Part shown: positions 1,224-52,900 of the stretch, piece by piece
How positions within the stretch are numbered: position 1 is the stretch's first letter
Layout of the letters: each line of letters starts with the position of its first letter
Program-made: the position numbers and the translations under genes
Notes under the pieces: model-generated
Told to the model about the DNA's origin: nothing
The model's database searches: none
The model's input: only the letters and a program-made list of their open reading frames with translations
DNA from: a virus
Virus record (IMG/VR): IMGVR_UViG_3300045912_000306
Location: 1-56,296 of that record
Direction: 5' to 3' (one strand)
Length of the DNA: 56,296 nt

Positions 1224-2207
1224 TTAATATTCTAAGCTATAAAAATATGGGTCACTTGGATCAAACCCAGCTAGCTGAATTTGCTTGCTTATTTCCTCTC
1301 CAATTGCTAATCTTTCTTCATTTGTTGTAGCTTTTTTTTCGGCTTCTTGTTTATATTTTGCTAGTGTTTGATACAGTTCTTGTTTTGTTTGCCATTGTGT
1401 TTTCTTTGGTTCAGGTGGATTTATCTTAGACCAGTTGCTTAAAACCTCATCTGCGATATCTGGATATTGGTTAATAAGATCAACAATGTCCTGCTTATAT
1501 CTATCTGTTCCCTCCATTCCAGTTGGTATCCAATCATTTTTCTCATAACTCCATTGCCATTGACCCAGTGGAGAATGCCACGAAATATTTGTCCTTCCAT
1601 CTTCAGATGGATTAAATGTTGGTTTTTCTTCGGTTGGTTGCCAGCCAGTCTTACCAGATAACAATATCTTTGCTAATTCAGACATACCAGCACTCTTTGA
1701 TGCAGTTGACGACCCCTTTCTGGCTGCTTCTTGTTTCTTAAATATTCTTTCCCATTCTTTCTCTGCTTGTTGTAATTCAAATTCTTGTGCAGCCAATCCT
1801 GCTTTATACAATTCCAAACCCTTATTTAATGCATTTCCAATTACATTTTGTCTTGATTGAATTAGATTAAGTAAATTTCCATATTCTCCACGAATGTCTG
1901 CTTTTTGACCAGAGATAATAGCCTGTCTATTCATTGGATTTTCAATATACATCTCGCTTTCAGGATTTGCATATCTTTCAGCCAATCTTTTGTCGGCTGT
2001 ATAGAGTTCTTGTATTTTTGACTCAACATCGCTCTCCAGTCCAGGCAGGGTCTTCTCCCTTTCATATAGAGCTTTTCTAAGAGCATCTGTTATTCCGGGA
2101 AGACCACTATAACCAGCTTTTACCGCACTCGTTAGGTCTGAGATTTTCTTTTCTACCGCACCAAGACTTCCTGTGTAAGTATTAGTTTGATTATTTTGAT
2201 TGTTCAT
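1224..2207 (-). CDS. helical virion-module protein, unknown function
   Basis: 327 aa. Not recognised as a family. Mostly charged helix and coiled coil (roughly residues 40-175), a Ser/Thr/Gly-rich patch near 165, a Trp-rich segment near 210-225 and another helix near the C-terminus. SD GGAGG lies 10 nt before the ATG and overlaps the stop region of the upstream 274-aa gene, so the two are co-translated. It lies between the fibres and the giant polyvalent protein (across the circle join), where podoviruses carry internal or ejection proteins. That role is inferred from position only. The TnpB element begins just beyond its stop. Confidence 0.75.
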   Translation of the reverse strand: MNNQNNQTNTYTGSLGAVEKKISDLTSAVKAGYSGLPGITDALRKALYEREKTLPGLESDVESKIQELYTADKRLAERYANPESEMYIENPMNRQAIISGQKADIRGEYGNLLNLIQSRQNVIGNALNKGLELYKAGLAAQEFELQQAEKEWERIFKKQEAARKGSSTASKSAGMSELAKILLSGKTGWQPTEEKPTFNPSEDGRTNISWHSPLGQWQWSYEKNDWIPTGMEGTDRYKQDIVDLINQYPDIADEVLSNWSKINPPEPKKTQWQTKQELYQTLAKYKQEAEKKATTNEERLAIGEEISKQIQLAGFDPSDPYFYSLEY

Positions 2208-2222
2208 ATAGTTAGCACCTCC

Positions 2223-3047
2223 TTATCCATAATAATTATTTATCGCTTTCCTCATTAAATTTTCTCTCTCAATTTGTTGTAATGCAATATCATCACTTCT
2301 TTTTTGTCTGGCAAGATTAGCAGCATTAGTTTTCTTTTCTTCTTCAAGCTGGAATTGTCTTCTTTGCCATTGTGTATCAGTATCATCAAGTTTTCTTTGC
2401 TTTGCTATGCCAGCCTCTTCTTCGTATCTTCTAAGAGCCAGGTCAATAGCCTCCTGTCTTGCTTGTTGAGCTGTTCTAACTTTATCGGCAGTATAATTTG
2501 CAATGCCAGATTGTAATATATTTCTCTTATTCAAATTAGAAAAAGCGCTAATCCCCTCTTCTGGGAAAGTTCCATAATCATACTTGGTTCTGTTATAATA
2601 TTGGGCTATACTTTCATTTGGAAGCATTTGCGGTCCATAGTTTCGTTTTGCAATTTCCCAATCTTCCCTTTTTATTCTTATGCCTCTTTGATAATCTTCC
2701 TCAAGTCTCTGTTTTGCTTTCTCAACGTCTCCTCCTTCTTCTCTCAATATTCTTTCATAATACGGTCTCAGTTCCTCAAGAGCCTGTTTTTCATATTCCT
2801 CCCATGTTTTTGTCTGAAGTGGGGGAAGTTGAATAGGAGAAGCGGACAATTTAGCAAAAAGATTAGCAAACTCATCTATTCCGCTAGAAGATAAACCACC
2901 AGACAAAGAACTTGTGGGAGAACTATTTGGACCAGCTCCACCAGTCGGGTCTTCTCCGTTTGTCCATCCCCAAGCACCCCACCAACGCATGACTTTTCCC
3001 CCAGCATCTGGGTTTGGATACCAACCGCCGAATAATTTATTTGCCAT
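2223..3047 (-). CDS. Gly-rich N-terminus plus coiled-coil virion protein
   Basis: 274 aa. Residues 1-55 are rich in Gly, Trp and Ser; the rest is charged helix and coiled coil. Not assigned to a family. It pairs with the 327-aa gene downstream, and the two helical proteins may be internal virion or ejection proteins (inference). No SD is visible before the ATG; it starts one base after the stop of the 26-codon ORF upstream, which suggests translational coupling. Confidence 0.75.
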   Translation of the reverse strand: MANKLFGGWYPNPDAGGKVMRWWGAWGWTNGEDPTGGAGPNSSPTSSLSGGLSSSGIDEFANLFAKLSASPIQLPPLQTKTWEEYEKQALEELRPYYERILREEGGDVEKAKQRLEEDYQRGIRIKREDWEIAKRNYGPQMLPNESIAQYYNRTKYDYGTFPEEGISAFSNLNKRNILQSGIANYTADKVRTAQQARQEAIDLALRRYEEEAGIAKQRKLDDTDTQWQRRQFQLEEEKKTNAANLARQKRSDDIALQQIERENLMRKAINNYYG

Positions 3048-3129: not shown

Positions 3130-4349
3130 TATATTAAATTAAATAAGAAAAACGGATTCTTTTCAAATAAAGTCGGATCAGCAACGTCTGTAAATGTAGG
3201 ATTAGTTGTTCCTGTAACGGTTCCTGAATGGTGGATTGCAATGCCTCCATTTCCACCATTGCCACCACCCCTGGTACCTAAATTATTTCCTCCTGTCCCA
3301 CCAAGTGCAGTAATTAGATTGCTTCCCAATGATGCTGTTCTACACACAATAAGACAAACACCTCCACCTCCGCCACCACCGCCTGGAGAATCACCTATTG
3401 CACCACCATTGCCACCATTTAGATTGATAGTTCCTGTAAATTCATAAGAGTTTACAAAAAATACGCCGACACCTCCGCCAGAACCACCTATCCCAACAGC
3501 ATTGGAATATATTACCTGACTTCCACCACCACCACCACCAAGTGTCATTGTTGTTAAATCGGCGGTGCTTATAGCGGAGCCACCTATTCCAGCAGGATTG
3601 ATACCACTCTTACCATTACTACCAGCATTTACACTACCACCACCACCGCCACCACCATAGTTTCCTGAGACATTTGGAGAACCCCCACCACCATTTCCGT
3701 TTGCGTTACTGTTTTCCTGTATTGCTCCCCCAGTTCCTTCTCCACATCTTGCTGGTTGGGTTAAGTGCTCTGATGGGTTATGACAAGATGAACCTGCACC
3801 ATGATCTTGATGGCAACCAGCACCTTTAAAGCCACAACCAGAATTATTATCTGGGACATCACAAGTACCATAACTACCATTTGCTCCCGCCAAATTGATT
3901 GATCCGCTTCCTCCAAAACTTCCTTTAATGGCAATAGGAAAAATTCCACCAACATCTCCATTCCACGCAGTTACATTCCAGGTTCCACTACAAGTTACAT
4001 TTTTGTATCTTGGAATTAAAACCGCTTGAGCTTGTGAAGCCCCAGAGTCGGTATAGGTATATTGAAGCGGTTTAAGAAGTGTAAGAGAGGTAGTGCCACC
4101 ACCTGATACAATCCTATTTACTTCCCATTGTCCAGCTCCAGTCCCTCTTGTTTGATGGACTAAGATAACATCTCCATTTGAAAACCCCGATGAACCTAAA
4201 GTTAAAGTAGTTGAGCTAGCACTCCCAGAGCAAGAGCGATAAGTTATTGTCGGAATAGACGATGAAGAATAATCCCCATCTTTTCCGTCGCCAAATGGCA
4301 TATTGGGGAAAATCCAATCTAATTTCTGCCAATCATACAATTGTGCCAT
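3129..4349 (-). CDS. glycine-rich tail adhesin-like protein
   Basis: 406 aa. After about 150 residues of beta-rich sequence, the C-terminal half is dominated by poly-Gly and GGxGG runs, the pattern of polyglycine-II sandwich adhesins such as T-even gp38-type receptor-binding tips. A Cys/His-rich loop lies near residues 165-200. It starts one base after the stop of the 181-aa gene. The likely role is receptor binding at the virion surface; this is inferred from composition and position. Confidence 0.7.
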   Translation of the reverse strand: MAQLYDWQKLDWIFPNMPFGDGKDGDYSSSSIPTITYRSCSGSASSTTLTLGSSGFSNGDVILVHQTRGTGAGQWEVNRIVSGGGTTSLTLLKPLQYTYTDSGASQAQAVLIPRYKNVTCSGTWNVTAWNGDVGGIFPIAIKGSFGGSGSINLAGANGSYGTCDVPDNNSGCGFKGAGCHQDHGAGSSCHNPSEHLTQPARCGEGTGGAIQENSNANGNGGGGSPNVSGNYGGGGGGGSVNAGSNGKSGINPAGIGGSAISTADLTTMTLGGGGGGSQVIYSNAVGIGGSGGGVGVFFVNSYEFTGTINLNGGNGGAIGDSPGGGGGGGGVCLIVCRTASLGSNLITALGGTGGNNLGTRGGGNGGNGGIAIHHSGTVTGTTNPTFTDVADPTLFEKNPFFLFNLI

Positions 4350-4350
4350 A

Positions 4351-4896
4351 TTACAAATTCATAGCAATTACGAAACCGTCGTAAGTATTTGCTCCAGTGC
4401 AAATAAAACCAAACCAATCAGCCTTATTTGCTGTTGGTGTTAAAGTTGGAGCAACACCACCAGCCCATTTAATTGTAGAAAACCAAGTAACTGTTCTATT
4501 TCCACTAGCGTCTTGAATCAATTTTAATGCAAAAGCACTTCCAACTTGTGCATTTGATATGGTTAGTGTTCTATTTCCGCCTAGAGTTACTTGTTGTATA
4601 TGTCCCTGAGACAAATCAAATGTAATAGTCGCACCATCTGTCGCTGTTACTATATCTGTATATGGCTGAATTAATTTTGGTTTTGCGAGCGTTTTGTTGG
4701 TTACTGTTTTAGTATTTGTCGTTGTTAAAATATTGCTATCTAGCTTTGATGCTTCAATAGCGGCATCAGAAGCTATATTAGCATTTTTGATATTACCATT
4801 ATAATCATTGATTATATTGTTAAACTCAGCATTAAGATCTGCTGGAGTTAAAGTATCACCTGTGTTCCATATTTTTATTCTTGAAATTGTTGCCAT
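4351..4896 (-). CDS. short tail-fibre-like structural protein
   Basis: 181 aa. The N-terminal phrase GDTLTPADLNAEFNNI is typical of phage tail-fibre and appendage proteins. A helical segment (25-60) is followed by a Thr/Asn/Gly-rich beta region (60-181). A strong SD, GGGGGTG, lies 6 nt before the ATG. It is followed at once by the Gly-rich adhesin, so the two probably form one appendage. Confidence 0.65.
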   Translation of the reverse strand: MATISRIKIWNTGDTLTPADLNAEFNNIINDYNGNIKNANIASDAAIEASKLDSNILTTTNTKTVTNKTLAKPKLIQPYTDIVTATDGATITFDLSQGHIQQVTLGGNRTLTISNAQVGSAFALKLIQDASGNRTVTWFSTIKWAGGVAPTLTPTANKADWFGFICTGANTYDGFVIAMNL

Positions 4897-4912
4897 TTAT
4901 AACACCCCCTTT

Positions 4913-6436
4913 TTAAGCATCTCTAATCTTTTTTGGTTTAAATAATAATGTATATTCTCGAATATGTACAGGCTTATTAGCTTCATTTTGACAAAAATTA
5001 AATTGTACAGAATACGCTGGGTCGCCACCAAGTTCTACTCTTTTTCTTAAAACGCTTGGGGAACCAAGTGGTTGTGGTAATATAAACGGTAAAACAGAGC
5101 TACTTCCCTTCAAATTTACGCTAGCAACACTATTAAAATCAAAGGAATTTGAAGATCTTTTTATGTCCAAATTAACATCATTTCCTGTATCTACTGTAAT
5201 AAATAAATATTTCCATTTTGCCTTTGTGTCTATCTTAATATCATTCATGATTCCCCTAGTGGTAAACATTCTAGTTTTATATTGGAAATCAATGGGGTTG
5301 CCATTATCACTATTAGAAGAATCAAGCTTATATACTTTGCTATCATTATTAGCTTCTTGAAAATATATTTCAGCTTTTCCACCAATTGTTGATATTGCCC
5401 ATGCAGCAACATTTAAACCAGTCCATTTAACAAAACTTTTATTTACAGTATCATAAACAATAACAACATTATTTATTGTAGAAGAACCCTCTGGTACGGC
5501 CAAATAATATTTTCTACCATCGAAAATGGAGGTTGATATGTCTAATTTTGATTTATTTAGTCCCAACATTGTCCCTTCAATATCTTCCGATATAATTCCA
5601 CCAGCAACATTTACAGCATACCTTGTCCTTTGAATACTTCTTATGTGTGGAATATTTCCAGTAAAAGATAAGAAAAGGGTATCGTTTCCTATATTTTGGA
5701 AACTATTGTGGGATATATTACCAAAACCGTTTATACGCTCATTGATATTGTTTATAGAAAACGTTCCTACATCAAAACCAGTTAGAGAAAAAACCCTATT
5801 TTTCTTGGAAATAAGCAACTCGTCTCCAAGAACGTATAACCCACTAATAAAATCTCCGTCATTTGGATTAATATCAATATAATCATTTGCCGCCCACGTT
5901 TCTGGATTGCCAGCGTTTGAAAAATACAACCTATTTGGGTATGTTGGATTACCTGCAACAAAGAAAAAATTATGAAACCATATAGCATATTTTCCAATAG
6001 GCATAGCGGTAATCGGGGAAGCACTGCTTCCATTATACGCCAAACACGTGTCAGTACCATTAAAACTATATAGTTTATCTGTCGCCTGAACAAAATTAGT
6101 AAATTTATTAGCAGTCTGATTTGAAGCACCAGTTATTTGTGTCCAGTTTCCACTACCGTCCCACGACATATAAACAGAATTTGTATTGTCCGAATTGTTC
6201 CATACCGCTACTAATCTTTTTGTCCCGTCTGTTTTTTCCAACGAACCAAGTCCAAGACCATATTTATTTCCTATGGCATTTGCCACCATTGTGTATCCGT
6301 ATCTTTTTTTAATACCACCATCAACTACTGCATTTAGTATCATGGAGGCATAACCAGAAGGAAGCATTTCTGGTTTAACGTTATCTTTATATCCTTTGGA
6401 AAAGTCTCTCTCTGTATATCTAATAAGGTCTTGCAT
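4913..6436 (-). CDS. P22 gp10-like tail (stabilisation) protein
   Basis: 507 aa. The N-terminus (D-F-S-K-G... with a following GGIKKRYGY) and the repeated blade-like beta motifs (NRLYFSNAGNPETW, NRVFSLTG) match the beta-propeller tail-stabilisation proteins of podoviruses. It shares its start region with the stop of the adaptor gene (6436), as expected for a gp4/gp10-type neck-tail pair. The family call rests on remembered motifs and gene order, not on alignment. Confidence 0.75.
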   Translation of the reverse strand: MQDLIRYTERDFSKGYKDNVKPEMLPSGYASMILNAVVDGGIKKRYGYTMVANAIGNKYGLGLGSLEKTDGTKRLVAVWNNSDNTNSVYMSWDGSGNWTQITGASNQTANKFTNFVQATDKLYSFNGTDTCLAYNGSSASPITAMPIGKYAIWFHNFFFVAGNPTYPNRLYFSNAGNPETWAANDYIDINPNDGDFISGLYVLGDELLISKKNRVFSLTGFDVGTFSINNINERINGFGNISHNSFQNIGNDTLFLSFTGNIPHIRSIQRTRYAVNVAGGIISEDIEGTMLGLNKSKLDISTSIFDGRKYYLAVPEGSSTINNVVIVYDTVNKSFVKWTGLNVAAWAISTIGGKAEIYFQEANNDSKVYKLDSSNSDNGNPIDFQYKTRMFTTRGIMNDIKIDTKAKWKYLFITVDTGNDVNLDIKRSSNSFDFNSVASVNLKGSSSVLPFILPQPLGSPSVLRKRVELGGDPAYSVQFNFCQNEANKPVHIREYTLLFKPKKIRDA

Positions 6437-8401: not shown

Positions 8402-11400
8402 TTATGTATGCGTTATAAATATTCTACGTCTTTTTATAAATGCCCTAGCAGAAATTGTCTTTATGCGTGTATTACTAACGCTTGCTCTTGCCGAGATACT
8501 TTTTGTTACACCAACAATCTTTATTCTTGCTTTTGCCAAGATACTTTTTGTCTTGCCAAGACTTTTAACTCTTGCTTTAGAAGAAACAGTCTTTGTTTGT
8601 ATCAGTTTTACTCTAGCTCTTGACGAAATAGTCTTTTCTGTGATGGAGAGTTTAATTCTTGCTTTTGCTTGAATATCTTTTCCTTGTGTCTTTTTTACGT
8701 CTGCTTTTGCAGAAATAGTTTTTGTAATTCCAGACGATAAAATTCTAGATTTTGCAGAAATGGACTTTTCTTTGACAAGGGCAATGCGAGCTTTAGAAGA
8801 AACCGTCTTTGTTGTATCAATATGCTTAATTCTGGCTTTTGAGGATATGTTCTTAGTTAATCCAGTAGTCTTTATTCTTGATTTGGCAGATATAGTTTTA
8901 GTAAAAGTTTCAACAGCTGGCTGAATATAAGCTTTAGCAGATATTGTTTTTGTAACATTTTGTAAAACTCTTGCTTTTGAACTAATAAACTTCTCAATGT
9001 TTAATTTTTTAATCCTAGCTTTTGCAGAAACAGACTTAGTAATTCCAGAGGACAAAATTCTAGCTTTTGAAGAGATTGTCTTTAGTTGTGTTAATTTAAC
9101 TCTAGCTTTAGACTGAATTGTTTTAGTAACAGAAAGTTTTCTAATTCTAGCTTTAGCTGAAATATTTTTTGTAACACCACCAGACTTAATTCTTGCTTTT
9201 GCTTGAACATTTTTTTCACGAATGAATATCCAACCACTATTATTCCCGCTATCAATAGAGTTAGTTCCAGCATACCAAGTAGCACTTGGTAACGTACCAT
9301 AGCTAAAACTTACAGCATCTAAAGATAGTGTTAAATCACTGACCGCATTTCTTCCTGTTGGGGTAAAAGCAACATTTCCATATGAATTTTCTATACCCTG
9401 TAAAGCTTTTCCACCAGACTCTGGCTGTGCTGATTGGGTATGTATTTCAATATGGTTATCATTTTCAAAAAGTTTAATCTGGAAAGATACGGTTGCATTT
9501 TCACTATATGTAGGAACTCCATTAAATTCGACAACAAATATTCTGTTTGGTGAAGTTCCAACCGTTTCATATTTAATTGTCCCCCCAGCTTCTGGGTTAA
9601 GGTCAGTATTATAACCAAAAATAGTATCTTTATAATTTATATCGTCACGTGGTATAGGAAAAGGGTCGTAATCAGCAGAACCACTATTATTAAACTTTAT
9701 AGCTCCATTACTACAAATCCAAACCAAATTTTTATCTTCACCAAAAAAATTAAAAATAAAAGGTAAAGAAATTTGCCCAGATTTACCTTCGTCACTAAGG
9801 GTAACCGACGTAGCACCACCCGTTAATGTTGTCCAATTATAAGTTATAGATTGGATATTATAATTTTGTAATGGAACGGTATTAGAATTTTTTATATTAA
9901 GATAATCACATACAACTGTCCCAGAAGATTTATAAAGGTTAAATTTATAGACGCCATCTATGCTATTTAAATTTATTAAATTTCCAGCTGTTCCAGATAC
10001 ATTAAAAGTATTTACTGTTGTTTCACTTCCTTTTTGAAAAAGAATCTGATTTGGAGTTCCTGTTACTTTAAATTCGTTAAAAGTATTTGAGCCGTAAAAT
10101 TTAAAACCAGATGCCCAAGTACCACTTATCCAAATATTATTAAATGTATGAGATGCTTTGGGGCTATTGTAAACGGCGTCATTAACATAAAAAACAGCAT
10201 TGTTTCCAGAACCACTTATTTTTATTGTCGAAGTTTCTGGTGTTATATTTACTTTTTGATTATCGTATTCATCAAAATAAAAGACATTTCCCGAACCAGT
10301 CGCCTCCCAAGTTCCGCTACCCATTATTATTGTTGGTGTATTGGCAGAAGAAGCATAAAAATAAAAGTTATTTGCTATTACGTCATAATCATTAGCATCA
10401 AAAGTTCCATTACTTTGATAAAACGTATTGGTTATTGAAAAATTCCCGCCAAGAATAACCGAACCATTTTCTTGTATAAGATCATTTGCATTTAAATTGT
10501 CTAATGTATTAAATGTTCCAGAACCAACAAACCAAACTTCCCTTAATTGTCTACCGTATGTTGTTATGTTAACTGAAGTATTAGCTTTAAAATAAATTTT
10601 TGCGGCATTAGAATTTGTGTTAAAGGTACTTCCACTTTCTAATGTAAATGAACCATAAACGTTAAATACTCCGCTTCCAGTAATTGTGTAATTGTGACCA
10701 GAAATTGAAGTAAAATTATAACAATTTGCAGAAACATTAATGGTTATTGTCCCTCCGCTACCAAATCCTGAATTAGAATCTATAAAAACATCATCAGAAG
10801 AAGTGGGGACAGAAGCACCACCAGAACCACCACTTGAAGTTGACCAGTGGTTTGTGTCTGACCAATTTCCCGTACCACCAACCCAGTATCTTCTTCTTAC
10901 TATATTTGCTTTTGCAGAAATAGTCTTGGTAACGCCAGTAGATTTTATTCTCGCCTTTGTGGAGACAGTCTTTGTAATTCCTGCAAATTTAATTCTTGCT
11001 TTTGAAGATACTGTTTTTGTAACATCAGCAGATTTAACTCTTGCCTTAGACTGGATTGTTTTTGTTTGAGTGGTTACACTACTAATAGTAAAACTCCTTG
11101 TACTGCTCCAAGAACCCCACGTATTGCTTCCAGATGGGTCTTTACCTCTTACTCTCCAATAATAATTTCCAGCAGAAAGAGGAGACTGGACTGTATATGT
11201 AACTGCTTGTCCTGATGTAAACGGGTCGGTATTGTCGGGAGAACCAGAAAATCCAGCATCAGTTCCAGATATCTTGGACGGCACATCATAAGTTATAACT
11301 AATTTAGGGCGATAGGTTGGATCAGAATAATTAGCGGTTCTTAACATTTTAACCGTATCGTCGGTTGGAGCAACATTATCAAGGTCTTTATTGTCTCTAA

Positions 11401-13477
11401 GACCTAACAACGTGTATCCTTGTTTGTTTATCCAACTCAAACCAGTAGCATTAAGCGTAAAATCAAGCCAACCTGTACTTGAAACAGTCTGGCGTGTTGC
11501 CCCCTCAGTTGAACCCATTTTGCTATAGTCACCGCTTGCCAAAGACGTTGGGTCGGCTTGTGTTGTATTAACCAAACACCAATCTCTCGCACCACCACTT
11601 GTAGAATCTACGTACACAGACAATACAGCACTTGTAATTGTTGCGTTATCTGGGATTGCTGATGTATCAAAAGGTAGAAAAAATCTATCTATATAGTAAG
11701 TTGTACCCACCAACCTTGACCTACAAGAATCCGCAGTAGCAGTTTGATTAGCGTTGCCAGTTGAAAATCCTCTAACTGTTGCCCAATTTGAACTTCCATT
11801 CCATACATCCCCGTCACCATTTGCTGGTGGGTTTTGAGTAAGGGGTGAAGCAATATCGTTTGCGACTGCTATCTGTATTTCATAGCGAATATCATCTCCC
11901 TCAGCGTCGGTACCAGTGAATGTTAAATCTGGTGTTGTGTCTGAAATGATTGCTCCATCTTGGGGAGAATTGAGAGAAACAGACGGACTAATGTTGATAG
12001 TAAAACTCATTACGCTACTCCAAGCACCATATTTGTTAGAGCCAGATGGGTCTATTCCTCTAACACGCCAGTAGTAGGTAGTGCCAGGTGTTAATTCAGA
12101 TTGGACGGTATAGGTAACTGGTTGCCCTGAGGTAAACGGATCAGTGTTATCAGGAGAGCCACTAAAGCCAGCGTCTGTGCCTGAGACTGCGTCTGTGATA
12201 ATTTGTCTTACTCCCCAGTTATCTATAACACCAGTGGTATCTCTTATTCCTATGTACGCATAAAGTCCTGTTGTATAGGTTGTATCTGCACTTGATGTTA
12301 ATACAAGATTTCCGTTGACAAAAACTCTAAATACACCGTTTGTGTCTTTGGAAACAGCTACCTGATCTCCGTTACTAAACTCATAATTTACAGACGCCAA
12401 TAATGTTTCTACAGCATTGTCAGCCCTGCGAATTGCAATAGTATCTGTTCCAGAATTGTCCTCAAAAGATATTCTATATCCGCTCCACGTCGACGTTCCT
12501 GGTTGTTGGATAAAACCCATCTCAACACGTTGTGAATTTCCAGGTTTTGTAACAATAGTGAAATACTGTTCAATATAACCACTAAATGTATTTGCGTTCC
12601 AATAAGCCTCACATGAAGTTGCAGCCGTTACTGCTTTTAACTGATTAGAAACTATTTGGAGTTGATTATTTGCCCCTTCTCCCAGTGCATCATTTGTCCA
12701 ATTTCCACCAATAGGATTTTCATCTGGCCTATTGAAATCGTCAGTTACCAGTGTTCGGTAGAGTTGCACATTATATCTAATATCATCTCCTTCATTATCA
12801 GTACCTGTAAAGGTTAAGTCTGGGGTGGTATCGGTGACTGTTGCCCCGTCTGAGGGAGATGAGAGGGTTACACTTGGAGATGTTTCGGGGGACAGTACCT
12901 CAACAGTTGCTCCGTAGTATCCAGAGCTTGAAGATGTAGTACAAGATTGAGCGATTGAGCCGTCAGAAGTTGAACTGTTTTTAGTGTTAAAACAGACCTC
13001 TGTTGCCACCGATGCCTGTCTAGTATATCCAGACGGAGCTGAATCCCACGCAGTAACAGTACGATGTCCGTAGAAATGTAAAATGAGAGCTTTGCCTGTT
13101 GTTTGCTGTTGGGTAATTGCTGGTGCTGTTGCCGAGTTTGAAGCAGTACCACCACCCCTTGCCGCTCCACCTATCGGAGTACTTGCCTGTCCCTGAATAA
13201 CAACCGCCACCATTCCCGTTGCGTTTGTCCATGTACCTGAAGTGTGATTAGTGGCTGTTGCAACAAAATAAGCAGTTCTTCCACTATTAGTTGAGGTACC
13301 CGTACCAGTACTAATATCTATCCACGCAGGAACCGTCCCCGAAGCAGTTGGTTTAGTAGGTGGAGTAGTTGAACCATCTCTATATGCCCAGATGATAATT
13401 AGGTCACCAACCGCATGGGGCGGAATTGTAACTGTACTTCCTGCACTTGCATTTGCTCCTTTGATTGATGCCGCCAT
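8402..13477 (-). CDS. giant repeat-rich tail fibre / adhesin
   Basis: 1,691 aa. Order of regions: a beta-rich N-terminal module (about 1-200); two Fn3/cadherin-like units each opening with PSV-L-SP-DGA and containing DTTPDLTFTGTD, separated by LamG-like and DNRLRE-like beta domains; four copies of a 15-residue K-T-I/V-S-x-K-A-R-I repeat (about 805-865); a beta-helical region beginning YWVGGTGNWSD (about 870-1390); and 18 further copies of the repeat to the C-terminus. It is the largest tail gene and probably forms the long host-recognition fibre. The repetitive DNA could vary in copy number by recombination. Confidence 0.8.
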   Translation of the reverse strand: MAASIKGANASAGSTVTIPPHAVGDLIIIWAYRDGSTTPPTKPTASGTVPAWIDISTGTGTSTNSGRTAYFVATATNHTSGTWTNATGMVAVVIQGQASTPIGGAARGGGTASNSATAPAITQQQTTGKALILHFYGHRTVTAWDSAPSGYTRQASVATEVCFNTKNSSTSDGSIAQSCTTSSSSGYYGATVEVLSPETSPSVTLSSPSDGATVTDTTPDLTFTGTDNEGDDIRYNVQLYRTLVTDDFNRPDENPIGGNWTNDALGEGANNQLQIVSNQLKAVTAATSCEAYWNANTFSGYIEQYFTIVTKPGNSQRVEMGFIQQPGTSTWSGYRISFEDNSGTDTIAIRRADNAVETLLASVNYEFSNGDQVAVSKDTNGVFRVFVNGNLVLTSSADTTYTTGLYAYIGIRDTTGVIDNWGVRQIITDAVSGTDAGFSGSPDNTDPFTSGQPVTYTVQSELTPGTTYYWRVRGIDPSGSNKYGAWSSVMSFTINISPSVSLNSPQDGAIISDTTPDLTFTGTDAEGDDIRYEIQIAVANDIASPLTQNPPANGDGDVWNGSSNWATVRGFSTGNANQTATADSCRSRLVGTTYYIDRFFLPFDTSAIPDNATITSAVLSVYVDSTSGGARDWCLVNTTQADPTSLASGDYSKMGSTEGATRQTVSSTGWLDFTLNATGLSWINKQGYTLLGLRDNKDLDNVAPTDDTVKMLRTANYSDPTYRPKLVITYDVPSKISGTDAGFSGSPDNTDPFTSGQAVTYTVQSPLSAGNYYWRVRGKDPSGSNTWGSWSSTRSFTISSVTTQTKTIQSKARVKSADVTKTVSSKARIKFAGITKTVSTKARIKSTGVTKTISAKANIVRRRYWVGGTGNWSDTNHWSTSSGGSGGASVPTSSDDVFIDSNSGFGSGGTITINVSANCYNFTSISGHNYTITGSGVFNVYGSFTLESGSTFNTNSNAAKIYFKANTSVNITTYGRQLREVWFVGSGTFNTLDNLNANDLIQENGSVILGGNFSITNTFYQSNGTFDANDYDVIANNFYFYASSANTPTIIMGSGTWEATGSGNVFYFDEYDNQKVNITPETSTIKISGSGNNAVFYVNDAVYNSPKASHTFNNIWISGTWASGFKFYGSNTFNEFKVTGTPNQILFQKGSETTVNTFNVSGTAGNLINLNSIDGVYKFNLYKSSGTVVCDYLNIKNSNTVPLQNYNIQSITYNWTTLTGGATSVTLSDEGKSGQISLPFIFNFFGEDKNLVWICSNGAIKFNNSGSADYDPFPIPRDDINYKDTIFGYNTDLNPEAGGTIKYETVGTSPNRIFVVEFNGVPTYSENATVSFQIKLFENDNHIEIHTQSAQPESGGKALQGIENSYGNVAFTPTGRNAVSDLTLSLDAVSFSYGTLPSATWYAGTNSIDSGNNSGWIFIREKNVQAKARIKSGGVTKNISAKARIRKLSVTKTIQSKARVKLTQLKTISSKARILSSGITKSVSAKARIKKLNIEKFISSKARVLQNVTKTISAKAYIQPAVETFTKTISAKSRIKTTGLTKNISSKARIKHIDTTKTVSSKARIALVKEKSISAKSRILSSGITKTISAKADVKKTQGKDIQAKARIKLSITEKTISSRARVKLIQTKTVSSKARVKSLGKTKSILAKARIKIVGVTKSISARASVSNTRIKTISARAFIKRRRIFITHT
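8417..9220 (-). repeat. 18 tandem copies of a ~14-15-codon fibre repeat
   Basis: The C-terminus of the giant fibre is built from units such as KTISAKARIKTTGLT, KNISSKARIKHIDTT and KTVSSKARIALVKE. The core is K-[TNSD]-[IV]-[SQ]-[AS]-[KR]-[AS]-R-[IV] with a variable 4-6 residue tail. The period of about 42-45 bp is kept while third positions drift, so the array is old and held by selection at protein level. Confidence 0.85.
10890..11075 (-). repeat. second block of the fibre repeat (4 copies)
   Basis: Four units (KTIQSKARVKSADVT, KTVSSKARIKFAGIT, KTVSTKARIKSTGVT, KTISAKANI) match the C-terminal array but are separated from it by about 520 residues of beta-helical domain. The repeat is therefore a linker or shaft element used twice. 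Confidence 0.85.
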
Positions 13478-16403: not shown

Positions 16404-17522
16404 TTAGCTGCGAATCTCTATACCAAAGTTAGACCTCAAATTCTTCACACCATAAATGACATCAACTACAACAAGAGTACCGAGATATTCAAGAATGTAT
16501 TCACTCTGAACTCTTGGCTTCTGTTGCATAGCCAATGCCAAAGCCTCTTTGTGAAAGAGCATGTTGTGATATTGGGTCGGTGTACCGGCAGTACTGGGAA
16601 CCTGGTTTGTGTAGTAAGCAGGAATACCCCAGAGCTCACCCCACAAAGAACTAGATTTTGGTCCAGCAGCTGCGGGTTTTGGACTTTGGTAGTTTCCGAG
16701 ATAGTCTGCTCTAACGAATTGGTCGATTTGAGCAATAGCCGTCTTTTGTTTGGGATGGAACACGAATGCTCTATCCTCAAGAGGGGCATTTGCCAAATCT
16801 AGAGCCTCTATAGCACTCAAGATTACAGGGCTTGTGACATTGGTACCATAGGTTCCAACATCAGCATTGCTGAATCCTGTATATAATGCCAAGATGTCCG
16901 AATCAACCGCTTGAGATATGGCATAACCAGCTTTGCTGGTATATTCTGCCATTCAATTTTGTTACTGCACCTAACAATTAAGTTGTTGGAGTGCGGGCTG
17001 GATATTTCTACCAGCCTCTGTACGTCACCGTACAGTTCCGACTATATCTTTACCCATAAAGGGTAGTCCGTACATAGTCTGTACACCTTCTATCTGAAAA
17101 GATAGCTCGGCTCGGTATTGTCTTGCAATTCTTGCAAGATGTCCACCGAATTCTCGGACTTTTTCAATTACCTTTCGGTAAAAGGACCCAATTTTGCTTA
17201 GGTCGTAATTTGACTGAACTTTTACGATATCTTCAACCAAGAAAGATGCTTCCTTGTGTTTATTGATATCAATAGTCGTTTCAGTCTCTGTTACAGCCTG
17301 CAGTGTTACCTGAGTGTTTGCGCTTTTGTCATTAGCAGTAAGATTGCTCAAGCTAGGAATGTGGATTGTATCACCACGTTCTTTCACAAGAGAATCATAC
17401 CTCTTTACAAGAGGAGCCATGACTAAGGCATCTTCGGTTGCTCGAAGAACCTCCATAGACCAGACATCAGGGATAAACTTAGCCGCAGTCGTGGTTGTAA
17501 TTTGATTTGTACCCAAAGCCAT
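16404..17522 (-). CDS. major capsid protein, split by a group I intron
   Basis: Two exons: 17522-17200 (323 nt) and 16953-16404 (550 nt). Joining them at CT|A gives an unbroken 290-aa protein across ...VQSNYDL-MAEYTSKAGYA.... Unspliced, the first exon runs into 57 intron codons and stops (165 aa). The N-terminal phrases (ITTTTAAKFIPDVWS, GDTIHIPSLSNLTANDK) and C-terminal ones (LEDRAFVFHPKQ, HNMLFHKEALALAMQ) are those of HK97-fold phage coat proteins. SD AAGGGGGTG precedes the start. Scaffold lies directly upstream, as expected. Splicing is inferred from the intron structure and the restored frame. Confidence 0.9.
16954..17199 (-). ncRNA. group I self-splicing intron in the major capsid gene
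   Basis: 246 nt, no ORF of its own. P1: exon GACCU (17204-17200) pairs with guide GGGUC (17189-17185) with the required U-G at the splice site. P2 has a GAAA loop. P3: AGUCCG (17160-17155)/CGGACU (17070-17065). P4 UCGGU/ACCGA; P5 CUUGCAA/UUGCAAG; P6a CUAUCU/AGAUAG. P7: GACUAU (17079-17074)/AUAGUC (17045-17040). P8 ACCC/GGGU; P9 CUGUACG-GUGA-CGUACAG (17035-17018), then two more stems. The terminal omega-G is 16954. P10: AAU of exon 2 with AUU of the guide. The core phrases GAGCCGAGC, AAGGUGUACAGACUAU and AAAGAUAUAGUC resemble compact tRNA-type (IC3-like) introns; the subgroup is my inference. Confidence 0.93.
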
Positions 17523-31872: not shown

Positions 31873-33216
31873 TCAATCCCAAAATGTGCTAGTTTTGGTT
31901 TGTGCGTCTTTTGGTTCGTACTCCAAAAGACCTTCCCTTTCAAGCTCGTCCTGAGCTTTTAAAATATTTTCAAACAAGTCCTTATTTTTTTTCGACAAAA
32001 CCCAATCCCAGTCAAAACCCTGATCAAGCACGGCATCGGTAAAATTTTCCGATCCGAGCCCCTTAAAAATTTCGTCTTGCGTGGGGATGTAAATCTCCCT
32101 TCCGGTTAAACTTTTTCGGAATTTAAGAGCGTCCAAAATGCGCCTGACCTCCATCTGTAATCTTTCAATTTCTTTTGGGGTAATGCTGTCGTTTTCAAAT
32201 AAAATTTGATCTTGGATACTCTCCAACCGCATCAAAAGAAGCTCCGAAAGGTAACCACCCGGCTTCTTGATTGGAGATGTTTCGTCAAAATCAACCAGCT
32301 GTTTTTTTAGTGTTTCGACAACAAACTTGTCATTCTCTTTTTTCTCTACAACAATTGGTTTTTGTGGTAACACCGGCTCAACTTTTGTCTTTCCTACATT
32401 AAAGGTTTTTTCCTCGTCCCAGTTTTGCCAGCGGTAGACATAATAGGACGGCCTTTCAACTTCAAAGCCAACCCAACCACCCAAGCTCAATTTAAGTCCT
32501 GTGTTTTCTTCCATTTCTTTAAAAACAAAATCTTTTTTGTTTATTTGAGAAAAAAATAAATTATGAAAATAAAACTTATAATCAAACAAGGCTTCTTCCA
32601 AAATTGCCCTCGTCGAAGCCCAAAAAATAGTCCCTGTTGGTCTGTGGTAAGCTAGACAAATAGGATTGCCCGAAGAAAGCAAGTAAACATTGCCCGGTTC
32701 GTCCACCCTCAATAAAGCAATAGCCATACTTCCTCTCAATTTTTTAGCCGACGCCTTTATTGCGTTGATGGTTTTGAAATTCTTTTTGAAAATAAAATGC
32801 TCAACAAGTCGCAAAATGACTTCGGTATCCACTTCACCGTCGGTTTTTAAATTGAACTCTTCTTTCACTTCCCGATCGTTTGAAATAACGCCGTTATGAA
32901 CCAAAGCCAAACCCAACTTGCTGACTACGGGATGATTGTTTTTGTTGTTTTCCGCTCCACCTTGAGTCTTTGCCCTGTTGTGCCCAATTACTAAAGTTGG
33001 ATTGTTTTCCTTCAATAAAGTTTTGAAAACTTTTGTTTTGACAAAAACGCTAGCATCTACTGGCTCCTTGTAAAAAAGGATATCCCGATCCTTCACGAAA
33101 GCAAAGCCCGTAGCATCTCTGCCCCGCACCTGACTGGCGAGCAAAATTTTTATAAATTTTTCTTTTGCAAACTCGGAGTGCTCTCCCACTGTTAAAAATC
33201 CGCTAATTCCGCACAT
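31873..33216 (-). CDS. class-II glutamine amidotransferase protein
   Basis: 447 aa. The N-terminal Ntn-hydrolase domain begins MCGISGF, so Cys2 becomes the catalytic N-terminal nucleophile after Met removal. Further family motifs are SQVRGRDATGFAF, IGHNRAKTQG, LALVHNGVISN and TDGEVDTEVILRLVE. The C-terminal 220 residues are charged and unrecognised. It would release ammonia from glutamine for the amidoligase encoded just upstream (adjacent genes, no gap). Amidoligase with a class-II amidotransferase is a described phage gene pair (Iyer and colleagues, 2009). Confidence 0.9.
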   Translation of the reverse strand: MCGISGFLTVGEHSEFAKEKFIKILLASQVRGRDATGFAFVKDRDILFYKEPVDASVFVKTKVFKTLLKENNPTLVIGHNRAKTQGGAENNKNNHPVVSKLGLALVHNGVISNDREVKEEFNLKTDGEVDTEVILRLVEHFIFKKNFKTINAIKASAKKLRGSMAIALLRVDEPGNVYLLSSGNPICLAYHRPTGTIFWASTRAILEEALFDYKFYFHNLFFSQINKKDFVFKEMEENTGLKLSLGGWVGFEVERPSYYVYRWQNWDEEKTFNVGKTKVEPVLPQKPIVVEKKENDKFVVETLKKQLVDFDETSPIKKPGGYLSELLLMRLESIQDQILFENDSITPKEIERLQMEVRRILDALKFRKSLTGREIYIPTQDEIFKGLGSENFTDAVLDQGFDWDWVLSKKNKDLFENILKAQDELEREGLLEYEPKDAQTKTSTFWD

Positions 33217-35112
33217 TTATTCCTCCCCTCCTTCCTCTTTGAAAATCTTTTCCCAATCCATGTAGTTAAAATCGTCTCCGTAGTTTGAAAATCTTTCGGC
33301 AACTTCCTTGCAAAGAGAGTAGAACTGATATACTAACTCATCGTCACTAACCTCTTTTAAGGGCAAAGCCAAACATTTTACAGACTCATATTCTCTTTTC
33401 GGCTTAGTATATTCTGATATTTGTCTAGCAACATCTTCTAACTTCCTTACGAATGACAATTTTTCATCAGAGGTAAAGCCAGCTTGTTCAAAAAGTAAAC
33501 CCAAAATTTGATAGTAAGTCATATTTAGATCTATTGGATCAGGTAGCTGAATTCCCCCTAAACTCTCCGGCAATTTCGTTACGGGCAAGCTAGCAGCTAT
33601 CTTTTTACATACTTTCATTGGCTTAAAAATAGACTCAAGAACATTTTTCTTTTTAATATAGATCTTTTTAATTTTTCCTCTGAATTCGATTTTTGAACTG
33701 TAAATCCTTTCATTATTGAGAATTGCAAAAATAGCCGTTGCAATTTCTAAAAACAAAATATTTTCCTCTCTAGCTCTCAACCCCAAACCCAAGCCACGAA
33801 AAGCACTTGTTAGCTTGTGTTCGACATTCTCAATTGGAGATTGATCGGTAAAACCTTTAGCAATTTCAAACAAAAGATCAATGAAGCGAACAGTCCCCCT
33901 ACCCCTGATGTTACTGTTACCCATCCAAATCACATTCCCCCGAACCTCTTTAAGGCCGTAAACATATACAACGTTGATAAAACCAGAAACCTGATCCAAA
34001 ATTTCCCTTGAGATTGCATTGAAAATTGCAAAATTTACATTTGTTTCAATTTCTGCGCAAGCAAAATCCCTGTAATTAGCCCTTACAAATTTCACGCTCG
34101 GTAGTTTGTATTTGCCACTAGCAACCAACTTACTGACTCCCTTTTTGTGAACCTCCAAAAGAATTTTTACAACTTTCATGACAAGTTTTTCAAATGTGTA
34201 AGCTCTCCAAAACTTGTTGGTGTCAAATTTAATATGCCAGCCTTTTTTAATTTCGATGGCAAAAAGGGGTCTTTCTCTTTTTACTTCCCGAATAAAATCT
34301 TCGATTGCTTTTTGATATCTTTCTTCCTCTTTTACTTTTGGCAATTCTCTTTGCTGAGCAAAAACAAATTTTAACTGCGGTCTGAGGAGCTCTCTTGATT
34401 GCCTCTCGAACGCATACCGAAAAGCGCTATCTTTGATGACTGGATTACACCTGTAATTATGATAAATGGTTGCATCGGCGATAGCGTGTGCTAAGTACAA
34501 AATATCCCTCGCCAATTTTTGGCAAGAAAGGAACGAGGGCAAAGTCCTATACTCGAACCCCCATCCTTGCAAGCGAACGTCACCCAACTTGCCATAGCCC
34601 CGAGAGACTTTTCTGAAAAATGCGTATTCGTCTTTTTCTAAAAACATAACAGGAAACCCTAGCAAATTGTCCAAATTCAATATCATTCTTTCAATCAATT
34701 CTCGGCCTCTAGGAGTGTTTTCCCTAAGTAAAGAGTGCCCGAAGTGTATGTGTCCCCCCAAAGAAAGTTTGTCGCTAGTAGCCATTAAATTGTACTTGAA
34801 GACATTGGGATACTTGTTTTTATTTCTTTCTAGTATTTCTCTAATGTTTTTGATGGCTTCCTCTGGGTCTGTTGCTGGCTTTGGTCTGATCTCTGCTGTT
34901 GCTGTGTAACCGTCAAAGCCAAAGTCGCAATCTTGAGACTGCGGGTAGACTTTTTCTCCCGAGTCATCGACTGGAGTAAAAACAGCGTCAGCCTCTAAAA
35001 ACGAATTGCTAATCGGAGAAAAGATGCCCAATTCTGGGTCTGATCCTATTGTGATTGGCTCTCTCTCTTCAACTTTTTGTGAAATGTTGTTTTCCTGTTG
35101 TGTATCTGGCAT
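33217..35112 (-). CDS. phage amidoligase (COOH-NH2 ligase)
   Basis: 631 aa. Motifs of the glutamine-synthetase-like amidoligase family: GSDPELGIF (about 23-31), CDFGFDGYTATAEIRPKP (about 62-79), LGGHIHFGHS (about 116-125) and WGFEYRTLPSF. It would ligate an amine to a carboxylate with ATP. Together with the amidotransferase it may amidate or cross-link peptides, cell-wall material or a small molecule; the substrate is not evident. Its own strong promoter and SD (AAGGAG) indicate high expression. Confidence 0.85.
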   Translation of the reverse strand: MPDTQQENNISQKVEEREPITIGSDPELGIFSPISNSFLEADAVFTPVDDSGEKVYPQSQDCDFGFDGYTATAEIRPKPATDPEEAIKNIREILERNKNKYPNVFKYNLMATSDKLSLGGHIHFGHSLLRENTPRGRELIERMILNLDNLLGFPVMFLEKDEYAFFRKVSRGYGKLGDVRLQGWGFEYRTLPSFLSCQKLARDILYLAHAIADATIYHNYRCNPVIKDSAFRYAFERQSRELLRPQLKFVFAQQRELPKVKEEERYQKAIEDFIREVKRERPLFAIEIKKGWHIKFDTNKFWRAYTFEKLVMKVVKILLEVHKKGVSKLVASGKYKLPSVKFVRANYRDFACAEIETNVNFAIFNAISREILDQVSGFINVVYVYGLKEVRGNVIWMGNSNIRGRGTVRFIDLLFEIAKGFTDQSPIENVEHKLTSAFRGLGLGLRAREENILFLEIATAIFAILNNERIYSSKIEFRGKIKKIYIKKKNVLESIFKPMKVCKKIAASLPVTKLPESLGGIQLPDPIDLNMTYYQILGLLFEQAGFTSDEKLSFVRKLEDVARQISEYTKPKREYESVKCLALPLKEVSDDELVYQFYSLCKEVAERFSNYGDDFNYMDWEKIFKEEGGEE

Positions 35113-37126: not shown

Positions 37127-37849
37127 TCATAACATTGGTTCTTGAATTGTGTCTATTCTTTTTTGGGCTATCTTTATGTAATCGGAATTAATTTCTATAC
37201 CAATATAATTTCTATTAAGCAATTTGCAAGCAACTGCAGTTGTTCCACTACCAAGATATGGATCAAGCACAATTCCACCTTCCTTACAATGCCTTTCAAT
37301 AATTTTTTTTGTAATTGAAAGTGGTTTTTGGGTTGGATGATCTGTTCTTTCCTTTCCGCCAACAATGGGAGCGTAAAAAACATTTGTCATTTCTTTTTGC
37401 CCTTTAAAAATAAAATTTGAATTGTTTTTTGTATTCTTTTTCTTCAATGCCCAAAACAACAACTCCGTTGCTTGCCTATATCCAACCAATCTAAATTGAG
37501 GAAGCGGATTTGTTTTTACCCATATTAAAAGTTGTTTGGGATACATATTTTTTTCAAACCAATCACGATATTTTCCATACAGCTGTTCTGAAGTCCAAAC
37601 AATAATGCTTCCATTATCGTTTAAAACTCGTTTCGCTTCTTCTAAGAAAGGCTCTATTTGAAAATTATAATCCCATTCCCCAAAATCAAAATTGATATCT
37701 GCCCTCTTTCCGCTTCTATAATCACGAAAAATTTTGTTTTTTTGACTGATATTATATGGCGGATCAGTAAAAACTAAATCGACGCTTCCGTCAGGAATTT
37801 TTTTCATAACTTCTAAAGCATCTCCTTGATAGATTTTATTTAGTTCCAT
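37127..37849 (-). CDS. DNA methyltransferase (N6-adenine / N4-cytosine type)
   Basis: 240 aa. Motif IV is TDPPYN (about 30-35) and motif I is DPYLGSGTT (about 198-206), an order with IV first as in beta-class enzymes. HPTQKP and IGIEINSDYI complete the core. No separate target-recognition domain beyond the normal insert. It would protect phage DNA from host restriction. It overlaps the C5-methyltransferase gene by 14 bases, and no restriction nuclease is nearby. Confidence 0.92.
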   Translation of the reverse strand: MELNKIYQGDALEVMKKIPDGSVDLVFTDPPYNISQKNKIFRDYRSGKRADINFDFGEWDYNFQIEPFLEEAKRVLNDNGSIIVWTSEQLYGKYRDWFEKNMYPKQLLIWVKTNPLPQFRLVGYRQATELLFWALKKKNTKNNSNFIFKGQKEMTNVFYAPIVGGKERTDHPTQKPLSITKKIIERHCKEGGIVLDPYLGSGTTAVACKLLNRNYIGIEINSDYIKIAQKRIDTIQEPML

Positions 37850-38897
37850 AGTTAAAAAGATATTTTAATATATGAGCAACCACTTCAACATTGAAAGCGT
37901 TTCCTAGCATTTTGTATCTCTGTGTATTGCTTACACCTTCTGTAAAATTGTCTGGGAGTGATTGAAGTCTTTCACATTCTATGGGAGTTAGTTTTCTAAC
38001 TACATAGTCATTCATCACCATTGAGTCGGTTTGGACAGTTGTTAGTGCGTTTGCCTTATATCCGCCAATTTCTGGCTTCTTGCCTTCTCCACGATTGCGT
38101 AGTGCTACCGCATACAGACCAGTCTTTGCACCCCTACCGCCACCAAGAGCAGACAATGTGACTGACTTTCCTTCTGGTGAATAAACCCTATCTCCTTGAC
38201 AAAAGTTTCTTGAATAATTTTTTCCGTCTTTAGCCCAATCCTTATTCCTAATCCCACCAATAAAATTAAGTTCTTTTTTAATGTTAGATTGAGAGCCAAT
38301 TAAAACAACATTTTGCACAAAATACTTTTCCTCTACCTCTTCCTCTAAAATATCCCTTAAAAAAATCCCTCTATCTTCTGGCTGTGGTATTTCAACTTGG
38401 ACATATTTATCTCCAACTCTTGACCCCGCCCAAAACAGCCTTTTCCTATTCTGGGCTGATACAAGTGCCGCATTTATCATTACTGGTTCTACACCTAAGG
38501 TTTGCGAGATTATTTCTTTGTCTTTCTTTGGCATACTTGCCACGTTTTCTAATACAAAGAATTTGGGTTTTACCTCTTTTAAGATACGAACATATTCCCA
38601 AAACAAGGCACTTCTTTCTCCCTCTAATCCTTTGCGGTCTTTTTTTGCTATAGACAAGTCTTGGCAAGGTGAACCACCACAAATCAAATCAATCTTTGGA
38701 AAATTTGAACCCCTAAGTTGTTTAATATCTCCCACTTGGATTGTGTCTGGATAATTCTTTTGAGCTATCTGAATGGCGTATTTATCTATTTCGCTTGCGT
38801 AGTAGTTTTTAATTGGAACTCCCACCCTATCAAGTGCAACCCTCGCAGAAGAGATGCCATCAAATAAAGATAAAACATTGATTTTATTTATTTCCAT
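37836..38897 (-). CDS. DNA cytosine-5 methyltransferase
   Basis: 353 aa from the ATG at 38897 (MEINKINVLSLFDG); the longer open frame is a shadow of the peptidase gene. Motif I SLFDGISSARVAL, motif IV GGSPCQDLS (catalytic Cys), motif VI FVLENVASM and motifs IX-X (RLQSLPDNF, RYKMLGNAFNV) are all present, so the enzyme looks active. Likely restriction evasion, paired with the preceding N-methyltransferase. Confidence 0.93.
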   Translation of the reverse strand: MEINKINVLSLFDGISSARVALDRVGVPIKNYYASEIDKYAIQIAQKNYPDTIQVGDIKQLRGSNFPKIDLICGGSPCQDLSIAKKDRKGLEGERSALFWEYVRILKEVKPKFFVLENVASMPKKDKEIISQTLGVEPVMINAALVSAQNRKRLFWAGSRVGDKYVQVEIPQPEDRGIFLRDILEEEVEEKYFVQNVVLIGSQSNIKKELNFIGGIRNKDWAKDGKNYSRNFCQGDRVYSPEGKSVTLSALGGGRGAKTGLYAVALRNRGEGKKPEIGGYKANALTTVQTDSMVMNDYVVRKLTPIECERLQSLPDNFTEGVSNTQRYKMLGNAFNVEVVAHILKYLFNYGTK

Positions 38898-39261
38898 TTT
38901 TCTTAACATAATCTTCAACCTCTTTAACAATAATGCCCACAAAGTGAGCAAACAACTCGTCTCTGTTGTCGTCATCAATGTATGTAAAGATTTTATCAAC
39001 TGCGTGGACAGCCTCGTGAGCAAGAATAGACCAAAAATTTTTATTCTTCATCAAGACTATCACAGGATCGTCGCCTTTTATCCCATAAGTAACCCCTTTG
39101 ATATATTCCCAGTTATAATCAGAGATTGAGTCGTCATCAAAGTATTTTCTCAACCACTTTAGTTTCTTTTTCTGGTCTCCCCAAATAACATACACTGAGT
39201 ATTCGTTGTATAGAATTGGGATTTTTACAATATTTAATTTTTTATTCGTCAACTTTTTCAT
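38884..39261 (-). CDS. small zincin-type metallopeptidase
   Basis: 125 aa with HEAVHAVD (HExxH, about residues 79-86) followed about 20 residues later by ELFAHFVGII, a likely third ligand. The layout resembles the small metallopeptidase-like proteins common in phages. It overlaps the methyltransferase start by 14 bases. Substrate unknown. Confidence 0.7.
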   Translation of the reverse strand: MKKLTNKKLNIVKIPILYNEYSVYVIWGDQKKKLKWLRKYFDDDSISDYNWEYIKGVTYGIKGDDPVIVLMKNKNFWSILAHEAVHAVDKIFTYIDDDNRDELFAHFVGIIVKEVEDYVKKNGNK

Positions 39262-49942: not shown

Positions 49943-52900
49943 TTATCTTTGTGTGCTAAATTTTTCAAATGGTAAAATATTTTTCAGCGGATTATCTTCC
50001 TTTTTCCTAAATGTAAATGTATTTTGTATCACTTTTTTCAATATATCTGGAACATCGTCGTTTAGAGAAGCTTGATTAGAAAAATATAATCCAGTTCTTA
50101 GTTGTACAATTTCCTGTCTTTTTTTGTTTCTCTGTTCAACCAAAAATGATATTTTTCTTTTTTTCTCCTCTATTGTATCATTAGAAGACATAACTTGCTT
50201 AATCTTAAAAGTAATATCATCTATTTCCTTCTCCTTACTTCTTATTTTGCCAAGCACCACATTTTCTCCGCCCGAATAAGCTGGCATGCCCAAACTTCTT
50301 GCAATGGCAACGCCCTTAGACGGTGGTTGTTTTATTGGATATCCAGTTTTTTCGCCAGAAAAAGCTTTTGCAATTCTTTCTGCGGCAGTTATTGAACCAG
50401 GACCAAGTTGCTTTGCCATATATTCAAGAATCTTCTTCGCCTTATCTGGGTCATAATCTCCGTCGTATATTTTCTTTGCCGTAAATGGATCGTAGTTATT
50501 TACAATATTTTGATATACCTGCAAAAATGGCTGTCCACCAGTAAATAGATTTTGTGCCTGATTAAAATCTATAAATGTCCAAGTCAGCGGTTTTTCTGGG
50601 TCTGGCAAAGAAAATGGCAATATGTAAGCAAACGACATATAAATTGGATTTCCGTTGCTGTCTAATACTGGCAATACCGTTGCTGTTTGTTTATTCTTCT
50701 GAACCCATTCTGGCATGTTTGCTTCGTATTGATTATCTGTCATATTTAGCATAACTTTCCCAAACTCCCTTACAGCTTTTAATGCAAGGAAAATTGTCAA
50801 ATAAACCCACGGTCTAGTAACAAGAACCTCCAATACTCTGGGTATCATTAAATAGAGGAAGGAAATAAAAGGAGAAATAACACCACCAACACCTTTTCTA
50901 AAAGCGTCAATAATAAGAGGAACAATTTTGTAATTAAGTTCCCACTTGTTTGCAAATTCGATTGCTTGCTCTGGTGTTAGCCCATTTCTAATTGCACACT
51001 CAGCAAGATATGTTCTTGCAATGTGGTCAATTTGCCCATAATACTGGATAATCACACTTTCCTTTATGTTCTGTCTTGTTATTTCCCGATTGTTTAATCC
51101 AAGCTTTTTCTCAACAATTTCGCCAAATTTTTTCATTGGATTGGAGGCTTTTTCAACAGATTCCATTTCTTTTGTGTTTATTTCAACATTAAAATAATCT
51201 GATCCATACAAGCCCCTATCTCTCCAAAATTTATATCTTTGCCCTTTGGTGATATAATCCTTTACGCTACCAACATATACATGTGTATTTTCTGGGTGCC
51301 ACACAGGAAAACCAGCCATATATGTTTGAATATAATGACCAGATATCCAGTTTCTAATACCAGTGTCGAGAGACAAAGATGTTTTAGATATTTTCCACCA
51401 ACTAATAATTTCACCAAAGAAATTGTTTATCCACGTGTCCTTGCCATACTTAACCATCGCAGTCAAATCTTGTTCTAATCCAGGGTGGACCCAACCACCT
51501 TTTAACGGACCAAGATCCTTGTTATACCCCTTAGAAACAATATCAGATACTGGAATAAATCCTTCTTTTTCTTCTTTAGAAAATAGTTCTGGGTTTTCTC
51601 TTATATTTCTAAGGTACACAAGTGTTGTGTAATTGTGTATTAATGACTTAAGCGTTCTGTCTAATACAGCGTCTGCTTGAGTAACCCAACCAGCCTCCTT
51701 CTTGGCAGCAAGACCAATTTCTTTCAAATCTTCATCTGACACCTTAATTACTGAACCACTATCAACAAGCTTCTTTGCATTCTTAATAATTTTCTTGGCA
51801 ATATTTGTTGGGCTTGCAAGATATATTTCAGTCCCCAAAGTTCTAGTAGATTTCATTTCTATTAGTGGCTTAAGTTTTTCTTGAGACAATATAAAATTCT
51901 CGAAAACATCAACTGCTGTTGGGGCAAGCTGTTTTGCCAATTCTCTGTCTGTCACATAAAGAGAAACAAATTCTGCAACTTGTTCGCCTCTTTTACGAAC
52001 ATATTTTTTATAACTTGGCGTTGGACTTTCGCCTAAAATAGTTTCTGCTTTACTGTATCTTAGATCCGAAACAGCTCTCAACTCATGTTTAATTGAAACT
52101 CTCTGCCTGTAGTTTTCATTTTCAAAAAACAATTTCTTCAAGTCGTACGAATAATCTATTGCGTGTCCAGCTTCGTGGGACAAAACCTTTTCGTCGTCTC
52201 CAATTATTGTCTCTATCTTATTTTCTCCCCCTAAATAATGTCCAAGTTTTTTACCCCTTAACGACAAAACCCTCCCTCTTTCTACCCCGAGAGAATCAAT
52301 AAGGTTATTTAATTGTTTCCTTAAGACCTCGTCTATAGTAACCTTTATTTTTACTTTTGGAACAGATAGATTTTTAAGAAGCGTCTGCTCATCAATACTA
52401 GCCAAATCTGTGATAGTATATTTCCCCTTCAATTGTTTGGTAATCTTTTCTGGAAATCCAAGTGCTTCCACATTTCTGTCCTCTACCTGACCATCATGGC
52501 TTAAAGCCTCGAGACCCCATTCTTCAAGCGTAAGTTTTTTCTTAAAAATGCTTGTTGACAACCTATTGGGAGAAAACCCTGCTGGTTGGCTAATAATCGG
52601 TTTTCCTTCTTTATCAATGCCATTAATATAAAATGAGCGTGTATATCTTCCAACAGTAGTTTTTGCTAAATCGACAGACCATTTTGCATCCTGTGGAGAT
52701 ATATATCCCTGTTCAACCTGATACTGGAACTCTCTCCCAATTGCAAGACTGTATTTACTTATTTCTGCACCAATATCTATCACTCTACCACGATATTTTT
52801 CTGTTACTGGAATATAACCGCTAAGCATTTCTATAAGTTTCTCGCTTTCTTCAGAAGACAATTTTCTAAGTGGTTTAATGTAATCTTCCTGCGCTCTTTG

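Follow-up and report, generated by a model that had tools for sequence, protein, structure and literature searches.

The locus considered here raises the question of why the gene for a phage coat protein should be present as two separate reading frames, and what the DNA between them is. The window, a single assembled IMG/VR virus record of metagenomic origin and 56,296 bases in length, contains two minus-strand ORFs, 17522-17025 and 16952-16404, which are the halves of a single gene with portal and terminase genes upstream of it. The original prediction held that a group I intron of 246 nt, at 17199-16954, interrupts this gene and that its removal restores a coat protein of 290 aa; both the coordinates and the arithmetic proved exact, as joining the exons in silico after excision of this stretch gave a product of 290 aa. 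In a profile search, residues 6-288 of the spliced protein matched phrog_267, annotated as major head protein (E=8.5e-46), which upheld its identification as capsid, and the protein also matched Pfam PF25209. The reading frame is open through both exons, each of which closes with conserved capsid sequence. From the sequence evidence set out below, we consider it very likely that codon 108 harbors a laterally acquired, self-splicing group I intron without an ORF, whose removal would restore the 290-aa capsid protein (Table 1).

Table 1. Coordinates of the interrupted head gene, of the intron helices and of inserts in related capsid genes; the last three rows refer to the loci named
Feature	Coordinates	Strand	Description
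Major head protein gene, exon 1	17200..17522	(-)	codons 1-107 plus two bases of codon 108 (CT/A)
Group I intron without ORF, 246 nt	16954..17199	(-)	RF00028, intronless homologues, fold z=-6.9
Major head protein gene, exon 2	16404..16953	(-)	final base of codon 108 to stop
Exon-1 frame open inside intron	17025..17199	(-)	stop 17027-17025; unspliced product 165 aa
P1	17185..17204	(-)	exon GACCU 17204-17200 / guide GGGUC 17189-17185; U.G at 5' splice site
P3	17066..17159	(-)	GUCCG 17159-17155 / CGGAC 17070-17066
P4-P6 domain	17085..17150	(-)	P4 17150-17145/17116-17111; P5 17139-17132/17128-17121; P6 and P6a 17111-17085
P7	17040..17079	(-)	GACUA 17079-17075 / UAGUC 17044-17040; encloses P3 3' strand and P8 (17065-17051)
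P9, P9.1 and P9.2 hairpins	16967..17035	(-)	helix pairing
L018 insert	4238-4940		703 nt after codon 116; U...G ends; LAGLIDADG ORF PF00961, E=2.5e-5
L043 insert	2101-2834		in codon 20; boundaries by eye; LAGLIDADG-like motif ORF by eye
L056 insert	3234-4000		between codons 18 and 19; boundaries by eye; LAGLIDADG-like motif ORF by eye

The assignment to group I was borne out by the Rfam model, RF00028, which covered 17209-17018 over all 253 model positions (1-253) with 68.6 bits (E=2.4e-15) against a cutoff of 50 and was the sole Rfam match in the whole window, and by the full pairing of the helices: P1 (5/5), P2 (4/4), P3 (5/5), P4 (6/6), P5 (8/8), P6 (3/3), P6a (6/6), P7 (5/5), P8 (5/5), P9 (7/7), P9.1 (6/6) and P9.2 (4/4). 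The U-G pair of P1 and the pairing of P3, P7, P8 and P9 were therefore as had been claimed, whereas P10 was weaker than implied, consisting of only 3 bp, AAU with AUU of the guide. Exon 1 ends in U, the U of the P1 U.G pair, the intron ends in G, and homologues read through the junction, all in agreement with the splice sites that had been chosen. The predicted folding energy of the intron was -91.2 kcal/mol relative to a mean of -59.6 for shuffled sequences, and none of 200 shuffles was as strong. When five related introns were compared, 10 of the 37 predicted pairs were kept by changes on both sides, including some pairs of the P4-P6 domain.

A comparison with intronless homologues had been proposed as a check. 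IMG/VR was scanned twice, yielding 17 and 52 loci on partly shared contigs; the site was uninterrupted in 62 fetched loci, reading YDL/MAEY or a near variant, and as 11 of these were re-fetches they represent about 51 distinct contigs. The codon-108 site is thus interrupted in one gene, that of the window, and uninterrupted in about 51 related contigs; 24 of the 27 residues flanking it in the window are identical to those of one relative, L002. The finding of the same 82 codons in frame in a homologous gene had been named as evidence against an intron, and none of the 62 site-spanning IMG/VR loci carried them. Because the site-spanning contigs have no insert, we concluded that the 82 codons are not part of the protein. 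No co-conversion signal was seen, the exon divergence near the site being ordinary.

A strict core pattern gave no match in viral contigs; a looser one matched at least 120 IMG/VR stretches, with 80 loci among the matches listed. When 64 upstream frames were scanned among the matches listed, 15 matched phrog_1328, 3 phrog_1357, 3 phrog_3437 and 2 phrog_267, all of them major head protein families, and one further frame matched phrog_334; these counts overlap, since some frames match two families. Cores related to that of the window thus occur in head genes of four further families (1328, 1357, 3437 and 334), and major head proteins were the commonest recognised host gene among the matches listed that share the core motif. 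Together with the published capsid introns (PMC3706429, PMC7886860), this contradicts the view that such an intron is unexpected in a capsid gene. Because starred branches of a core tree of loci among the matches listed require the capsid label to have been gained or lost at least five times, phage capsid genes have probably been entered repeatedly by such introns. On this tree, which was built from few columns, the window intron clustered with L091 and L082 (starred, 96). The L091 core was 84% identical to that of the window over 109 core columns, a match limited to the short core; its host is a phrog_1357 head gene whose exons match contiguous profile positions, 23-218 and 220-345, and the L082 host is weakly tail-fibre-like. 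A clade-specific pattern added L195 and L197, both in phrog_1357 head genes and the former having an ORF of the HNH family immediately past its core, and L196, whose upstream frame matches an HNH family. Among the matches listed and those added by the clade-specific pattern, the nearest relatives of the window intron therefore lie in phrog_1357, another head-protein family. When the intron was used as a DNA query, isolated phages showed partial matches only, and a scan of a genome collection yielded a single contig, from a Sulfurovaceae MAG, which is insufficient for naming a host. We also observed that in the cultured Vibrio phage 1.232.O (MG592596.1, 6679-8477) a related intron core and an HNH gene come after an annotated MCP; the MCP of this phage is probably split.

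The exon-1 frame of the window gene continues without a stop for 58 codons past the 5' splice site, through the ribozyme core (chance about 0.018 for this composition), and four in-frame stops follow. Stop codons that come in frame shortly after the intron begins are believed to prevent ribosomes from entering the core (PMC3984707). Among 19 comparison capsid introns, several of them near copies of one another, the exon-1 frame stopped upstream of P3 in 18 and slightly later in L138; one L119 row of this comparison has a mis-assigned frame. The frame runs into the core, as in the window, in L091, L082, L195 and L196, the upstream frame of the last being one that may not be an exon. A Fisher value for this contrast came from a rough table in which L091 was entered twice, and is given no weight. 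Ribosomes translating the window frame would reach the core and could interfere with folding of the ribozyme. It is conceivable, if rather doubtful, that some sublineage of phage group I introns is specialised in major head genes, crossing capsid families and dispensing with the early stop, so that capsid splicing is coupled to translation.

The passage of the exon-1 frame through the core would also be in keeping with a decayed group I intron that has lost splicing, leaving a phage that is defective or makes the truncated 165-aa protein. Where the gene is essential, an insert unable to splice would be expected to decay; instead, the named core helices are intact, both exons remain open up to their conserved capsid ends, and most residues near the site are shared with L002, and we therefore regard loss of splicing as improbable. 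An assembly chimera, in which an unrelated intron was fused into the capsid gene, might be suspected in a metagenomic record, and is very improbable since the edges of the insert fall exactly at plausible splice sites and P1 pairs with its own exon, which random joining is unlikely to produce. Least credible of all is translation of the stretch within a longer capsid protein, for, despite a length divisible by 3 and the 58 open codons, the four stops follow in frame, no relative has the 82 codons, and the differences between the window and L091 are spread evenly over codon positions (8, 7, 6), so that this comparison shows no sign that the open stretch of the intron is constrained as protein, and the frame is not a coding signal.

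Retaining the self-splicing intron as the preferred reading, we propose that the RNA would fold as a P1-P9 ribozyme and use guanosine for a cut after U17200, and that 17200 would then be joined to 16953 to give the capsid protein, as the anatomy and the homologues suggest. The intron would have been acquired laterally, from a family repeatedly entering phage capsid genes; the likeliest route would be either loss of an HNH gene or entry by means of an endonuclease acting in trans. It may persist because its removal is nearly neutral. As had been claimed, the intron encodes no homing endonuclease, its only ORF being the exon-1 read-through frame, and homing of ORF-less introns in trans is known (PMC3984707). 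The window proteins scanned with Pfam gave no match to HNH, GIY-YIG or LAGLIDADG. The mobility of the intron, previously called unclear, is slightly clearer in that closely related cores lie in other capsid genes, one of them having an HNH ORF after it.

Separately, one window protein matched PDDEXK_15. Elsewhere, the window holds a glutamine amidotransferase-like gene adjoining a COOH-NH2 ligase-like gene (31873-35112), two neighbouring DNA methyltransferase genes of the N6/N4 and C5 types (37127-39023), and two very long ORFs, one of 1691 aa with repeated SKARI-type motifs (8402-13477) and one of 2074 aa with no phrog match (49943-56167).

In three relatives of the window capsid gene, inserts of group I type that contain LAGLIDADG-like ORFs occupy three further positions, making four distinct insertion sites of group I type in one capsid family when that of the window is included. 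The L056 insert gave 20.3 bits with RF00028, which is under the cutoff. For L018, Rfam searches by gathering threshold and by E-value gave no group I match; the form of its splice sites and its P1 nonetheless fit, and the assignment of both L018 and L043 to group I reflects splice-site form, P1 and P7-like motifs, with no Rfam match. The LAGLIDADG ORF of L018 had no match at cutoff in a phage collection.

The original prediction had described the intron as IC3-like, and the evidence on this point is divided. P7.1 and P7.2, which together characterize IA2, the commonest subgroup in phages (PMC11835236), are absent, with 4 nt between the P7 5' strand and the P3 3' strand, and P5 is a simple hairpin without a large extension, as in IC3. 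Because it is compact and lacks P7.1 and P7.2, the intron is not a typical IA intron. The core scored 53.4 bits with a phage tRNA-intron model versus 61.7 with a phage IA-type capsid-intron model, scores that are only roughly comparable since the two models are unequal in length and depth. Two phrog_3437 capsid introns, L075 and L143, were clearly of the tRNA type, with 102 and 112 bits versus 48 and 59 on the IA-type model. We also noted group I cores in apparent phage tRNA genes at L103, L127, L128 and L116, the first two being tRNA-Leu by eye; ARAGORN did not report the split tRNA genes. The IC3-type introns of tRNA-Leu, here those of L103 and L127, resemble the window intron in being compact and lacking P7.1 and P7.2, whereas the window core scores slightly lower on the tRNA model than on the IA-type model and its host is a protein gene.

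Few phage proteins are made in such quantity as that of the capsid, and an intron in its gene must therefore splice very efficiently; moreover, gene callers split such genes, so that capsid marker genes may be mis-annotated. Among known systems, mycobacteriophage LittleE also has an intron, most likely group I, inside its major capsid gene, differing from that of the window in its length of about 819 nt and its LAGLIDADG-like ORF, whereas the BAKA intron, of 265 nt, is without an ORF like that of the window but lies in a tail gene; splicing of both was demonstrated by RT-PCR (PMC3706429). The host gene in the window, in contrast to both, belongs to phrog_267. In crAss-like phages of the Delta and Zeta groups, group I introns likewise occur in MCP genes, but these were found mainly by their encoded endonuclease domains, in large gut phages, whereas the window intron has no ORF (PMC7886860). 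A Tuc2009 capsid intron is cited in passages of the capsid-intron literature (PMC3706429, PMC7886860). The introns of Jug phages are small (mean about 206 nt) and lie in essential phage genes, with RNA-read support for 37 of 76; their named hosts, terL and nrdD, differ from the phrog_267 capsid gene (PMC12363816). The introns of L091 and of L195 and L197 share the core motif with that of the window and differ in head family and, for L195, in the HNH ORF. Introns in capsid genes, and phage introns devoid of an ORF, are thus already published; what is new here is that a single capsid family has been invaded at several sites and that such introns extend over several unrelated head-protein families.
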